Of a stretch of 64,000 nucleotides of DNA, positions 208 to 14,897 are shown piece by piece. How positions within the stretch are numbered: the first letter of the stretch is position 1; each line of letters opens with the position of its first letter. The notes beneath the pieces are model-generated. The model was not told where the DNA came from and did not search any database. It saw nothing but the letters and a program-made list of their open reading frames with translations. The DNA is from Tunturiibacter empetritectus (GTDB lineage Bacteria > Acidobacteriota > Terriglobia > Terriglobales > Acidobacteriaceae), in contig NZ_JACCCU010000001.1 of NCBI RefSeq assembly GCF_013410875.1, forward strand, positions 1,612,001 to 1,676,000. Direction: 5' to 3'. The position numbers and the translations under genes are program-made.

Positions 208-1275
208 TTATGCGGTTACGGGAACCTGGTCAAGAATGGTGGTCCATTTTTTCCCTTTTCGGGACGCCTGGGCGTTCTTGTGGAAGGCATAACCGGTAAT
301 CAAGGGTAGAGCGAGTGTGGCTTCGGAGAAGACCATCTGCTCGTAGGTGAGGTCGACTTTGCCCCAGCTGGAGGCTTCTTTGAGGGTGGAGCCGGAGAGG
401 GCGCCGTCGCGGGCGTCGGCTACGGTGATCTGGATGGCGTACTTGTGCATGGAGGCTTCGACACCGAGGATGTCGGCGGCTACGACGATGTCCTGGGCGA
501 AGTTCTTGGGGACGCCGCCGCCGACCATGAGGAGGCCGGTGGTGGGGTTGGCGATCTTCAGTTGGGTGATCTCGTAGAAGTCTTTTGCAGAGTCGATGGA
601 AACCATAGGCTTGCCCTGACGGGCGTGCTGATGTGCGACGAGACCGAAGCCTGCGGAGCAGTCGGAGAAGGCGGGACAGAAGATGGGGACGTTCTTCTCG
701 TAGGCGGCGAGGACGATGGAGTCGCGGCCGCCAGCTTGCGGGGTCTTGCCGTTTTTGCTGAGGTAGGCGCCCATCTCGCGGATGAACTCGCGGGAGCTGT
801 GCGGCCTGGGCTCGAGGGAGTTGGTGATCTGGTGGGTGATCTCGTCGCACTGGCGAAGCTCTTCTTCGTCGATGAAGGTGTCGTAGATGCGGTCGATCAT
901 GAGTTCGCGGAGCTCGGCATCGCCTGCACCGTACTTGTACTCGTCGCCGGCGACGTAGTGGTTGAAGCCGAGGGCCTCGAAGAAGTCCTGATCGACGATG
1001 TTGGCGCCAGTGGAGACGATGGCATCGACCATGTTGTTGCGGATGAGGTCGACAAATATCTTTTGAAGGCCGGCGGATATGAGGGAGCCGGCGAGGCAGA
1101 GGATGACGCCGCAGTCGCTGTCGCGGAGCATCATGTCGTAGATGTTGGCGGCGCGGGCGGTGTCACGCGCGGAGTAGGCCATCTGGGACATCGCGTCGAC
1201 CAGGGGAACGACGTTGTGCTGCTTGAGGTCGAGATGCTGAATGGGGCGGGCTAGAAGTTCTTTTTTTGTAGGCAT
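208..1275 (-). CDS. deoxyhypusine synthase-like protein
   Basis: The 355-residue protein has the fold signature of the deoxyhypusine synthase family, which uses NAD and spermidine to transfer an aminobutyl group. The GGGVPK segment near residues 252-257 matches the family's catalytic lysine loop (GGGxxK), so K257 is the likely imine-forming residue. The C-terminal SSWGK segment is also family-typical. Bacteria lack eIF5A, and bacterial members are reported to act as homospermidine synthases or have unknown substrates, so the true acceptor is open. The start has AGGAG only two bases upstream, which is unusually close. A strong terminator follows. The neighbouring hydrolase is on the same strand but separated by a repeat element. 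Confidence 0.85.
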   Translation of the reverse strand: MPTKKELLARPIQHLDLKQHNVVPLVDAMSQMAYSARDTARAANIYDMMLRDSDCGVILCLAGSLISAGLQKIFVDLIRNNMVDAIVSTGANIVDQDFFEALGFNHYVAGDEYKYGAGDAELRELMIDRIYDTFIDEEELRQCDEITHQITNSLEPRPHSSREFIREMGAYLSKNGKTPQAGGRDSIVLAAYEKNVPIFCPAFSDCSAGFGLVAHQHARQGKPMVSIDSAKDFYEITQLKIANPTTGLLMVGGGVPKNFAQDIVVAADILGVEASMHKYAIQITVADARDGALSGSTLKEASSWGKVDLTYEQMVFSEATLALPLITGYAFHKNAQASRKGKKWTTILDQVPVTA

Positions 1276-1455: not shown

Positions 1456-2370
1456 TCAGGGCTTGAGGAAGGTCTGGACGGCTTTGTCGAAGGCGGCGGG
1501 TTGGTCGTACATGATGAAGTGGCGGGAGTCATCGATGCGGAGGATCTTCAGGTTGGGCTTGGCGGCGTAGGCGGTGGTGTAGAGAGCGGTGACCTGGTTG
1601 GCTGGGCCTTCCGCGGTTTCATAGGGATAGAGAAGCGTCATCGGAGTTTTGATTGTGGCTAGCTGAGGACGGAGGTCGGTGCCGAGGTCTTCGAGCATGG
1701 CGTTGGCGAAGACGGTGCGGTCGGAGGCGATGGAGGAGGCTGAGACCAGGCGCTGGCCTTCGGGATCTTTGACGAGCCGGTTGGTATAGAGGGGGCTGGA
1801 TGCGGCGAACTGGTCGTTGGGCATGGCGACGAACTGGTCGTGGGCAGCCTTGGCCTGGGGTGCGACGCTTTCTACGGTGGCGGCTGGATCGAAGACGAGT
1901 CCGTAGAAGGGGAGGGTGTCAACGATGAGGAGCTTGCTGACGTCTTCGGGATGGGCCTGGGCGAGCATGAGGGCTAAGAGGCCGCCCATGGAGTGGCCGA
2001 TGACTGGGATTGGCTGGAGGTGGTTGATGAGGATGTACTGGTGGAGCTGCTCGACCACGGGGGTAAGGATAGGACCGTTTGCGTTGGGGCCGGAGAGTTC
2101 GCCAGCGAAGCCTGCGATCTGTATAAGGTGAAGGCGATAGGTTGCGGTGAGAAGTTTTGCTTCGGCGGCGTAGACGTCGCGGGAGCTGGCGAGGCCGGGG
2201 ATGAGGAGGACGTCGGGGCCTTTGCCGGGGGCGACGCCTTCGATGACGACGGAGAAGCGGGTGGGCGCTGCGGTGATGGCCTGGCCAAAGACTGGCTTTT
2301 TCAACAATAGGATGCCAGCCAGGATCAGCATGAGGATGACGAGGCGGCAGGTTGTGCGGGATGTGGTCAT
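1456..2370 (-). CDS. exported alpha/beta hydrolase
   Basis: The 304-residue protein begins with a hydrophobic signal segment (about residues 8-30), so it is likely periplasmic or membrane-attached. The alpha/beta hydrolase fold is indicated by the oxyanion region (LLIPGLASS, about 55-63), the nucleophile elbow GHSMGG with Ser127, an aspartate in the LLIVDTLPF strand, and a late histidine in DDSRHFIMYD. The substrate cannot be told; esterases, lipases and haloperoxidase-like enzymes share this pattern. The ATG start is preceded by GGAG at a good distance. The gene stands alone, with a dispersed repeat at its 3' end. Confidence 0.8.
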   Translation of the reverse strand: MTTSRTTCRLVILMLILAGILLLKKPVFGQAITAAPTRFSVVIEGVAPGKGPDVLLIPGLASSRDVYAAEAKLLTATYRLHLIQIAGFAGELSGPNANGPILTPVVEQLHQYILINHLQPIPVIGHSMGGLLALMLAQAHPEDVSKLLIVDTLPFYGLVFDPAATVESVAPQAKAAHDQFVAMPNDQFAASSPLYTNRLVKDPEGQRLVSASSIASDRTVFANAMLEDLGTDLRPQLATIKTPMTLLYPYETAEGPANQVTALYTTAYAAKPNLKILRIDDSRHFIMYDQPAAFDKAVQTFLKP

Positions 2371-2507: not shown

Positions 2508-3797
2508 CTAGATCGGCCTAGCTCCAGTTGTGTTCGGCGCGAAGGAGAGTTTTGAAGAGGTGCACTTTGCGACGATGAGGGTGATGTCGTCGTGTTGCTC
2601 GTGGGTGCTGAAGGTCTTGATCTCGTCGATGATGGCAGAGAGGAGGGCCTGGGGCGCGAGTTTGGAGTGCCGGCCGAGAGCGGCGATGAGGCGGTCTTCG
2701 CCGAACTCCTCTTCGGAGTCGTTGAAGGATTCGGTAACGCCGTCGGTGTAGAGGGTGAAGATGTCTCCTGGGGCGAGCTGGCATTCGACGATGGGGGAGT
2801 GCCACTCTTCGAAGAGACCGAGGACGGTTGCGGTGGAGTGGAGACGCTCGACGTCACCGTTGTGGCGGAGGATGATGGCGCAGAGGTGGCCGCAGTTGGC
2901 GTAGCGAAGGAGACGGGCGGTGTCGTCATAGTCGGCGAAGAAGACGGTGGCGTAGGCGCTGTCGGTGGTGTTCTGGTAGAAGAGGCGGTTGACGGATTGG
3001 AGGAAGGTGTGGGGCTCATCGCGGGCGAGGGTGAACTGGCTGCGGAGATTGGCCTGCAGGTTGGCCATGAGGAGAGCGCCGGCGATGCCTTTTCCGGCGA
3101 TGTCGCCGATGACGAGACCGAGGCGGCCGTGGCCGAGGGAGAGGAAGTCGTAGTAGTCGCCGCCGACGTGACGGGCCTGGATGCAGACGCCGGCGTAGTC
3201 TAGGGTTTCGAGCGGGGGAAGGGTCTGGGGGAAGAGGCGGGCCTGGACCTGGCGGGCGATCTCAAACTCCTGCGCGGCGCGGCGCTCGGCCTCGATCTTC
3301 TCGATGGCGTTGTTGCGCTGGCGCTCGATCTCGCGGCTGATCTGGCTGGAGGCGAGGAGTTCGAAGGAGTTGCCGTCGATGTCGTAAAAGCCGGCTACGG
3401 TGGCGCCGAAGATGGTCTGCTGGGGCGGGTGATGGAAGCGAACGCCGCGGTTGCGCCAAAGTTCGTAGGTGGTGTCGATGTCCTCGGAGATGAAGCCAAT
3501 CTGGGTGTTGCGACCGATGAGTTTGTAGTTCTCTGTGCCGGGCCTGGGCGCCATGAGGGCTAGGACTGCGGAGCCGTCGGGAGGAGCGACGGCGACCCAG
3601 CGGCCGTCGAAGTCGAAGTGGGCGTCTGCAACGATGCTGAAGCCGAGCTGGTCGACGTAGAACTTGAGGCTTTTGTCGTGGTTGCGGACGTAGACGGTGG
3701 ATTTGAAGATGCGCAGGTAGGGGCACTCTGGACACTCGCGCTCGGCCTGTTCGGCGAAGATGCGGGCGGAGGAGGTTGCCTGGGGTTCGGGCTTCAC
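2508..3797 (-). CDS. VOC (glyoxalase-like) domain fused to a SpoIIE-type PP2C phosphatase
   Basis: The first part (about residues 29-150) reads as a vicinal-oxygen-chelate fold with the typical end GNSFELL. A charged helical linker (about 152-182) leads into a PP2C/SpoIIE phosphatase (about 184-412). The metal-binding aspartates are visible in GGDYYDF (D214, D217), IGDIAGKG (D232), TDGVTE (D352) and HDDIT. SpoIIE/RsbU phosphatases dephosphorylate anti-sigma antagonists in partner-switching pathways. The VOC domain would then be a ligand sensor, which is inference. A CPEC motif (C22, C25) precedes the VOC domain. The start is GTG with GGGAGC upstream. No anti-sigma or antagonist gene lies nearby. 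Confidence 0.85.
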   Translation of the reverse strand: MKPEPQATSSARIFAEQAERECPECPYLRIFKSTVYVRNHDKSLKFYVDQLGFSIVADAHFDFDGRWVAVAPPDGSAVLALMAPRPGTENYKLIGRNTQIGFISEDIDTTYELWRNRGVRFHHPPQQTIFGATVAGFYDIDGNSFELLASSQISREIERQRNNAIEKIEAERRAAQEFEIARQVQARLFPQTLPPLETLDYAGVCIQARHVGGDYYDFLSLGHGRLGLVIGDIAGKGIAGALLMANLQANLRSQFTLARDEPHTFLQSVNRLFYQNTTDSAYATVFFADYDDTARLLRYANCGHLCAIILRHNGDVERLHSTATVLGLFEEWHSPIVECQLAPGDIFTLYTDGVTESFNDSEEEFGEDRLIAALGRHSKLAPQALLSAIIDEIKTFSTHEQHDDITLIVAKCTSSKLSFAPNTTGARPI

Positions 3798-3971
3798 GTG
3801 GTTGCTCCCTTTGCGAAGGTGTGCCGTTTTTCCGCTGCGGCTGGGCGATTGCTGGAGTTACGTGATCATCATCAACCCTTTGCCGATTCGATGTACAGGG
3901 CCACTTGGACTCAACGGATGGGCCAAGGGGAGGGAGTTGCTTTGAAGTGAATTGGAGACGAGACTGTTGGG

Positions 3972-13772: not shown

Positions 13773-14897
13773 CTAGAGGAGTTTGGCGATGACCAGAGTC
13801 AGGTCGTCGGTTTGCTCTTTGGGGCCGGCGAAGGCGGAGACGGCGTCGGCGATGTCGGTTACCAGGGTGGTGGCTGGCTCTGAACTTTTGTCCAGGATGA
13901 GTTTTGTAAGACGCTCGAACGAGAACTCTTCTTCGCTTTCGTTCTCCTGCTCGGTGACGCCGTCGGTGTAGAAGACGAGGATGTCGCCGGGCTCGAGGGT
14001 GATGATCGTGTTCGAGAACTGGGTGTCAGGCAAGATGCCCATGATGGGGCCGGCTTCCTCGAGAAGCATGGATTGGGAGTTGCTGGTTCGCAGGAGCAGA
14101 GGTGGGTTGTGGCCTCCGCTGGCGTACTCCAGTATGCGGAGTTTCGTATTGAACCGGGCGTAGAACATGGTGACGAAGGTAGCGGGACGGGTGATTTGTT
14201 TGAGGCACTCGTCGAGATCTTTGAGGATCGCGGCTGGGCCGCTTAGCTCGTGCGCACGAAGACGCAGGGCAACGGCGAGAGAGGGCATGAGCAGAGAGGC
14301 GGCGGCCCCTTTGCCGGAGACGTCTGCTATGACGACATCGACTATTTCGTCGGAGATCTGGAAGAAGTCGTAATAGTCGCCACCGAGGAGCCGGGCGGTC
14401 TGCATGAAGGCAGCGAGCTCGAGCCCTGGAACGATAGGAGCTTTGGATAGCACCTGGCGCTGGACTTGTGCGGCGAGGAGGAGATCGTCTTCGTATTCGT
14501 CGCGTTGGCGTCGCACCTCGGCGGCAAGGCGGCCGCGTTGTTTTGCGATAAGGCTGACAAGAAACCCAACAATGAGAAAGCCGGCAAGGCTAATGATGAA
14601 GCGGACGATTCTGACGTGAGTGTTGTCGCCGATGGGGCCGTAGAGCTCTTGCAATATGGAACCCAGGACCGCGAGTCCGATGGTGATGGGAAGAGGGTTG
14701 ATGAAGGCGCTGAGGGCGATGGGAAGGACGTAAAGATAGCCGAGGGAGATGTTGGCTACGACGATCCAGTCCGTGTAGGCGACGGAGACCACAGCGAGGA
14801 CGACGACCAGGTTGAGCAGCCCAGTGGTCTTTATTTCTTCGGTTTGAACTTGTTGTTTGTACTCGGCAGTGTTTTTACTGCTTCTGAGGAATGCCAT
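13773..14897 (-). CDS. membrane-anchored SpoIIE-type PP2C phosphatase
   Basis: Three to four membrane spans (about residues 26-118) are followed by a charged coiled stretch (RGRLAAEVRRQRDEYEDDLLLAAQVQRQVL). A PP2C/SpoIIE domain follows (about 165-373), with GGDYYDF (D174, D177), IADVSGKG (D192), YTDGVTE and TDDLT supplying metal ligands. Such proteins dephosphorylate anti-sigma antagonists in response to membrane signals. The linker coil resembles that of the VOC-linked phosphatase at 2508. No partner gene is adjacent. AGGAGAG lies ten bases before the ATG. Confidence 0.87.
   Translation of the reverse strand: MAFLRSSKNTAEYKQQVQTEEIKTTGLLNLVVVLAVVSVAYTDWIVVANISLGYLYVLPIALSAFINPLPITIGLAVLGSILQELYGPIGDNTHVRIVRFIISLAGFLIVGFLVSLIAKQRGRLAAEVRRQRDEYEDDLLLAAQVQRQVLSKAPIVPGLELAAFMQTARLLGGDYYDFFQISDEIVDVVIADVSGKGAAASLLMPSLAVALRLRAHELSGPAAILKDLDECLKQITRPATFVTMFYARFNTKLRILEYASGGHNPPLLLRTSNSQSMLLEEAGPIMGILPDTQFSNTIITLEPGDILVFYTDGVTEQENESEEEFSFERLTKLILDKSSEPATTLVTDIADAVSAFAGPKEQTDDLTLVIAKLL

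Follow-up and report, generated by a model that had tools for sequence, protein, structure and literature searches.

A VOC domain fused to a SpoIIE-type phosphatase suggests an unusual chemical sensor in a soil acidobacterium

The VOC-SpoIIE gene and the fold of its sensor domain

We analysed a window of 64,000 nucleotides from Tunturiibacter empetritectus, whose genome measures 5.07 Mb and is 99.88% complete. The window carries a gene, called as an exact ORF with a GTG start codon, for a protein of 429 amino acids (Table 1). Pfam matched Glyoxalase PF00903 at residues 34-147 (E 4.2e-13, 50.2 bits, cut-off 20.6) and SpoIIE PF07228 at residues 223-412 (E 5.2e-50, 170.5 bits, cut-off 25). A further 28 proteins, homologues at 54-91% identity, have both domains and form an alignment of 29 rows with the window protein, so the pairing is no chance match. 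Both Pfam matches, the two-domain homologues and the predicted fold described below bear out an earlier note, which had read the protein as a VOC sensor fused to a SpoIIE-type phosphatase. The full-length model built on the 29 rows had a mean pLDDT of 79.8 and a pTM of 0.59, and at this pTM the placement of the domains relative to each other is uncertain.

Table 1. Positions of the features discussed; positions refer to the window unless another locus is named.
Feature	Locus	Positions	Strand	Basis or remark
VOC-SpoIIE protein gene	window	2508..3797	-	ORF, Pfam, 29-row alignment
AGGGAG, likely ribosome-binding site, 7 bases 5' of GTG	window	3805..3810	-	reading of the sequence
VOC-fold sensor domain, residues 27-150	window	3348..3719	-	Pfam, models, GloA alignment, fold searches
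Single predicted helix, residues 151-186, VOC to phosphatase	window	3240..3347	-	model, junction alignment
SpoIIE/PPM phosphatase domain, residues 187-414	window	2556..3239	-	Pfam, alignments, fold searches
Deoxyhypusine-synthase-like enzyme	window	208-1275
Alpha/beta-hydrolase	window	1456-2370
Second SpoIIE phosphatase	window	13773-14897		Pfam
HTH_11 + WYL + SpoIIE fusion	L038	1027-2787
HTH_11 + WYL + SpoIIE fusion	L039	1465-3009
HTH_11 + WYL + SpoIIE fusion	L040	748-2325
HTH_11 + WYL + SpoIIE fusion	L041	721-2295
VOC and phosphatase in different frames	L035	1163-2391
Hanks-type Ser/Thr kinase + receiver domain	L126	1644-3110		divergent, adjoining VOC-SpoIIE
Hanks-type Ser/Thr kinase	L119	13808-16225		4-5 kb from VOC-SpoIIE
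Hanks-type Ser/Thr kinase	L122	1520-3703		4-5 kb from VOC-SpoIIE
RsbW-like + STAS gene pair	C1	1,766,871-1,767,610		about 150 kb from VOC-SpoIIE
SpoIIE-HATPase(RsbW-like)-STAS-SpoIIE cluster	G000:C2, L078	4160-8328		first SpoIIE and HATPase ORFs overlap as listed

Structure prediction, proposed in the earlier note as a check of this region, gave a VOC fold, with a pLDDT of 90.4 for the domain modelled alone. DSSP of the predicted structure placed two beta-alpha-beta-beta-beta units at residues 32-82 and 97-149. The top solved match was TnmS1 (5UMQ; Z 18.9, rmsd 2.7, 124 aligned residues, 38% identity), tied with 4HC5 (Z 18.6) and 5UHJ (Z 18.4), and the top three in Foldseek were the same. UcmS2, TnmS2, TnmS3 (with riboflavin or tiancimycin) and 5UJP followed at Z 16.5-16.9. 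The bleomycin-binding VOC proteins (Z 13.6-14.4) scored no higher than the glyoxalases (13.5-14.3), among them GloA2 at Z 14.3 and E. coli glyoxalase I (1F9Z) at Z 13.5. By these scores the domain appears structurally closer to TnmS1-type proteins than to glyoxalases, with 4HC5, which has no assigned function, in a tie. Since 4HC5 ties, this structural branch also includes proteins that are not known as drug binders, and together with the low Z of the bleomycin binders this means that kinship of fold does not fix the ligand.

To examine the metal site, we took E. coli GloA from its genome record and aligned it with all 29 VOC domains, that of the window protein among them. The ligands of E. 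coli glyoxalase I, which we take to be His5, Glu56, His74 and Glu122 (the alignment served as a check of the residue letters), fall on K32, A80, Q99 and E146 of the window protein. The domain thus shares the VOC fold with its two units with GloA, but it retains only one of the four ligands, E146. Across the 29 rows we found no H in the His5 column, no E in the Glu56 column, H in four rows of the His74 column and E in nine of the Glu122 column. A full set of four is possible in none of the 29 rows, and a GlxI-type metal site is therefore absent. The match to TIGR00068 reached 18.7 bits against a cut-off of 120. The earlier note had seen few of the metal ligands of catalytic VOC enzymes, as we now find by alignment, and neither outcome that it had named as refuting its reading appeared: the VOC fold is present and a complete glyoxalase site is not. 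A sensor role of the domain is thus well supported.

The actinobacterial proteins TnmS1, TnmS2, TnmS3 and UcmS2 share the VOC fold with the window domain at 27-42% identity over its length. UcmS2, too, is an antibiotic-binding VOC protein. In the alignment, TnmS1 reads V, D and L at the second, third and fourth GlxI ligand positions, so the nearest solved relative is likewise without the GlxI site, three positions having been read for it. The products of tnmS1-S3 act in tiancimycin sequestration, a form of resistance, and their homologues are widespread, according to the available part of PMC9854587. In contrast to these resistance proteins, the VOC domain of the window protein is part of a fusion with a signalling output.

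Ten residues of the VOC domain, R38, P72, P73, G75, W114, P125, G131, D139, D141 and N143, are invariant in 29 of 29 rows. The invariance of D139 and D141 would suit a domain that has kept enzymatic activity at another active site, so that the fusion would couple a metabolic reaction to signalling, and enzymes of the VOC superfamily are chemically diverse. We consider this very improbable, given GlxI ligand columns of 0, 0, 4 and 9 of 29, first-ranked folds that are binding proteins or have no assigned function, and a replacement by WYL (see below) that leaves the rest of the protein kept. As a separate observation, the 29-row alignment shows a subgroup of VOC-SpoIIE proteins (L034, L036, L037) with about 25 additional residues inserted into the latter half of the VOC domain. 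Shorter VOC matches and the trees indicate that L087-L089 probably have the same insert.

Phosphatase, linker helix and sensor exchange

A wider phosphatase alignment was made of 39 VOC, 4 WYL and 31 other proteins, after 4 low-scoring rows of 78 had been dropped. D214, D232, D352, D403 and D404, which by assignment to SpoIIE positions are presumably the metal-binding aspartates, are invariant in all 74 aligned rows. Against solved SpoIIE-type PPM members the domain gave Z 22-26, and its nearest solved neighbours included SiaA (25.6), the RsbU domain of Rv1364c (24.8), SpoIIE (23.3) and RssB (22.7). Judged from its residues, the phosphatase is probably enzymatically active.

In the model the last VOC strand passes straight into one continuous helix that runs from sensor to phosphatase in blocks of pLDDT 72-79. 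E, R, K and Q are abundant in the helix, whose hydrophobic or coiled-coil periodicity was not significant (permutation p 0.51). Charged positions are conserved, with R161 in 39 of 39 VOC rows and E or D at 171 also in 39 of 39, at places that a coiled coil might be expected to fill with apolar residues. The linker of RsbU was found in experiments to be flexible and to adopt a short coiled coil upon activation, and several of the linkers modelled for other sensors have polar residues at the a and d core positions (both from the available part of PMC12143880). The present linker is compatible with the RsbU-type model, rather than proof of it.

In an alternative reading, the VOC domain would be only a structural dimer module that pairs the phosphatase and binds no ligand, and activity would be set by expression or by a protein bound to the linker, as RsbT acts on RsbU. 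Control of a linker by a partner is experimental for RsbU (same part of PMC12143880), and the VOC domain tolerates variation at the former metal site. Much of the domain is nevertheless strongly conserved, as the ten residues found in 29 of 29 rows illustrate, the closest folds of characterised proteins belong to binders, and no neighbouring gene family recurs in more than three of 17 outside-genus loci. We regard a purely structural role as fairly unlikely.

Four homologous proteins from the same family carry an HTH_11 + WYL regulator as sensor where the window protein has VOC. Such an HTH-WYL-SpoIIE protein is probably a DNA-binding ligand regulator that carries a serine phosphatase. Their linker and phosphatase are 61-64% identical to the VOC-SpoIIE counterpart. 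The homology begins at residue 151-152, where the predicted helix starts, so the VOC and WYL modules occupy the same linker and phosphatase. Since much the same linker and phosphatase also bears HTH-WYL, the sensor is exchangeable.

In a tree of VOC domains, 37 fused domains and the frame-split L035 formed one branch (96/89), with eight other VOC proteins apart; this fits a single recruitment, within a small sample of eight outside VOC proteins. In the phosphatase tree, the four WYL rows were nested among the 37 VOC rows in a 41-row branch (97/95), outside which lay two further VOC rows, L033 and L139. A tree that keeps the 37 VOC rows as a clade of their own, free of WYL, was not rejected (AU p 0.43), and neither was L033 placed with the core (AU p 0.45). 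On account of these values, we claim from the sequence comparison an exchange of sensor modules at residue 151, without its direction or number. The frame-split homologue L035 has its VOC and phosphatase in different frames, through either a sequence error or a broken gene.

Distribution and genomic neighbourhood

In the survey of the domain pair across Acidobacteriota that the earlier note had proposed, at least 23 of the 150 family genomes and at least 11 of the 396 phylum genomes had the full pair. When the protein served as query, at least 20 family genomes, its own included, had a match spanning both domains (21 matches). Three more (G084, G009, G059), whose VOC domain is interrupted by an insert, were verified at the loci concerned, while G078, with VOC and phosphatase in different frames, was excluded. 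The family count is a lower bound, as it includes matches starting inside the linker only partly. The phylum count came from an alignment query with the best four candidates per genome scored (12 matches), and its carriers were 7 of 21 genomes of the genus, the host among them, and four outside the class (G325, G376, G210, G356). The presence of VOC-SpoIIE across genomes is patchy, and five of seven named related loci belong to Edaphobacter. In tblastn against 72,556 plasmids, none of the 263 records covered 80% of the query.

VOC relatives, free or fused, were found in 52 of 247 phylum genomes at E 1e-8. Among the 64 matches listed from these genomes, the VOC frames longer than 400 amino acids without SpoIIE were G187 (718 aa) and G380 (406 aa). 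By eye, the first resembles a dehydrogenase with a cytochrome and the second a free VOC protein with an upstream run-on, and no signalling-like output was apparent on either.

We compared 26 neighbourhoods, 25 of them centred on the gene (L044 lost it to an overlapping frame). Seventeen loci came from outside the genus, three of them short contig ends, and nine were close loci, where L046 and L129 are identical in sequence and were counted twice. Found in the close loci, and not among the families shared by at least three outside-genus loci, were a hybrid histidine kinase (just beyond the window), a deoxyhypusine-synthase-like enzyme, a hydrolase and a nicotinate phosphoribosyltransferase. The deoxyhypusine-synthase-like protein matches the NCBI model for 1,9-bis(guanidino)-5-aza-nonane synthase at 597.7 bits (cut-off 500). 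The alpha/beta-hydrolase was considered as a fixed RsbQ-like partner and rejected. Its start reads like a signal peptide, it occurs in seven of the nine close loci, on the opposite side of the gene in L045 and L128, and it had no match in the 17 outside-genus loci (E 1e-15, half coverage).

As a conserved operon partner, one non-self family was found in at least three of the 17 outside-genus loci (L119, L122, L126), and none in more. Its members are Hanks-type Ser/Thr kinases, which points to another possible partner and slightly lowers the odds of a STAS target. Profile searches of the host genome placed no STAS, RsbW-like or sigma gene beside VOC-SpoIIE, and a Pfam scan of 10 chosen neighbours at other loci gave no STAS or RsbW-like domain. 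The closest HATPase_c_2 match lies about 3 kb off, beyond the window, at 22.8 bits and below the cut-off, in a hybrid histidine kinase. Genome-wide there were matches to SpoIIE (13), STAS (11), Sigma70_r2 (24) and HATPase_c_2 (15, four of them strong).

The phosphatase could also act on something other than STAS, for example a metabolic enzyme, a receiver-kinase protein or a protein targeted by a Hanks-type Ser/Thr kinase. The lack of a linked STAS gene and the Ser/Thr kinase genes near three of 17 outside-genus loci agree with this, as does the finding that variable loops decide substrate choice in this phosphatase family (available part of PMC11418112). Three of 17 may however be chance. STAS proteins are moreover numerous in the genome (11 matches), and the closest solved phosphatases include RsbU/SpoIIE types with STAS substrates (substrates partly from the same portion of PMC11418112). 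A target of another kind is improbable in our estimate.

The window encodes a second phosphatase, with a SpoIIE match at E 5.4e-48. The earlier note had given it a membrane sensor and a linker similar to that of VOC-SpoIIE. It has several stretches of hydrophobic residues in the region from about residue 21 to 120, which makes a membrane sensor plausible, and Pfam named none above its cut-off (best DUF4118, E 0.16). The similarity, 32.8% identity over query residues 130-412, supports for the linker no more than a motif common before SpoIIE domains. Among the scanned SpoIIE proteins of the genome there were GAF and HAMP above cut-off, 7TMR-DISM below it, and several proteins without a named sensor. 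Several inputs, as the same note had supposed, thus fit the sensor types on the 13 SpoIIE proteins. Their convergence on one common anti-sigma switch is possible, with no STAS or HATPase_c_2 gene adjoining VOC-SpoIIE to speak for it.

Proposed mechanism and known systems

Taken together, the fusion suggests an unusual chemical sensor in a soil bacterium, as SpoIIE-type phosphatases can turn on stress programmes. The reading we favour, at barely better than an even chance, is a soluble, non-catalytic small-molecule receptor that gates a dimeric PPM phosphatase acting on a STAS anti-anti-sigma factor. The class of ligand, the dimer, the direction of control and the STAS target are the parts that we infer. 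The cytosolic VOC pocket would bind a small molecule, probably an aromatic or amphipathic one. Pairing is common among VOC proteins of this kind, and the ligand would alter how the VOC domains pair or the angle between them. The linker helices would then become stiffer or shift, and both PPM domains would be joined into an active dimer via their switch helices. The active phosphatase would dephosphorylate the STAS anti-anti-sigma factor, which would in turn take an RsbW-like kinase off a sigma factor or another target. The genome holds candidate genes for such partners in the RsbW-like and STAS pair and in the SpoIIE-HATPase-STAS-SpoIIE cluster (Table 1), which supports a STAS mechanism.

A bolder form of this, which we hold to be somewhat unlikely, is that the receptor is a drug-binding VOC protein captured in Acidobacteriota. 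Antibiotics or other aromatic natural products of soil competitors would directly switch on a sigma programme, and the phosphatase would exchange this receptor for other ligand modules, such as WYL, at a fixed joint. If the VOC pocket does bind natural products, chemical competition in soil would be linked directly to a regulatory programme in Acidobacteriota.

Returning to the favoured STAS reading, VOC-SpoIIE resembles the RsbU/RsbP/RsbZ-type proteins of Bacillus and Clostridioides in its N-terminal sensor, helical linker and SpoIIE-type PPM domain with invariant acidic residues. It differs from them in having VOC as the sensor and no linked STAS or RsbW-like gene. The sensors named for PPM phosphatases in the available part of PMC12143880 are RsbU-N, PAS, GAF, response-receiver and HAMP, and its main text makes no mention of glyoxalase, VOC or WYL. 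Glyoxalase is likewise absent from the available main text of a PP2C survey (PMC12088040), and no SpoIIE-glyoxalase fusion is described in the available portions of PMC8638967, PMC6213207 and PMC4219479. A literature search for vicinal oxygen chelate together with SpoIIE found nothing, and domain-architecture databases may list the pair without study. With VOC, the toolkit of sensors proposed to be interchangeable among PPM phosphatases would gain a further class. Nature offers a test of this idea, as the very different VOC and HTH-WYL sensors sit on closely similar linkers and phosphatases and join them sharply at the residue where the helix starts.

A minor observation concerns two cysteines of the phosphatase domain, C205 and C302, which are present in all 43 VOC and WYL rows. 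In the 31 other rows, position 302 holds C in 17, A in 13 and G in one. The pair is a possible candidate for redox control.
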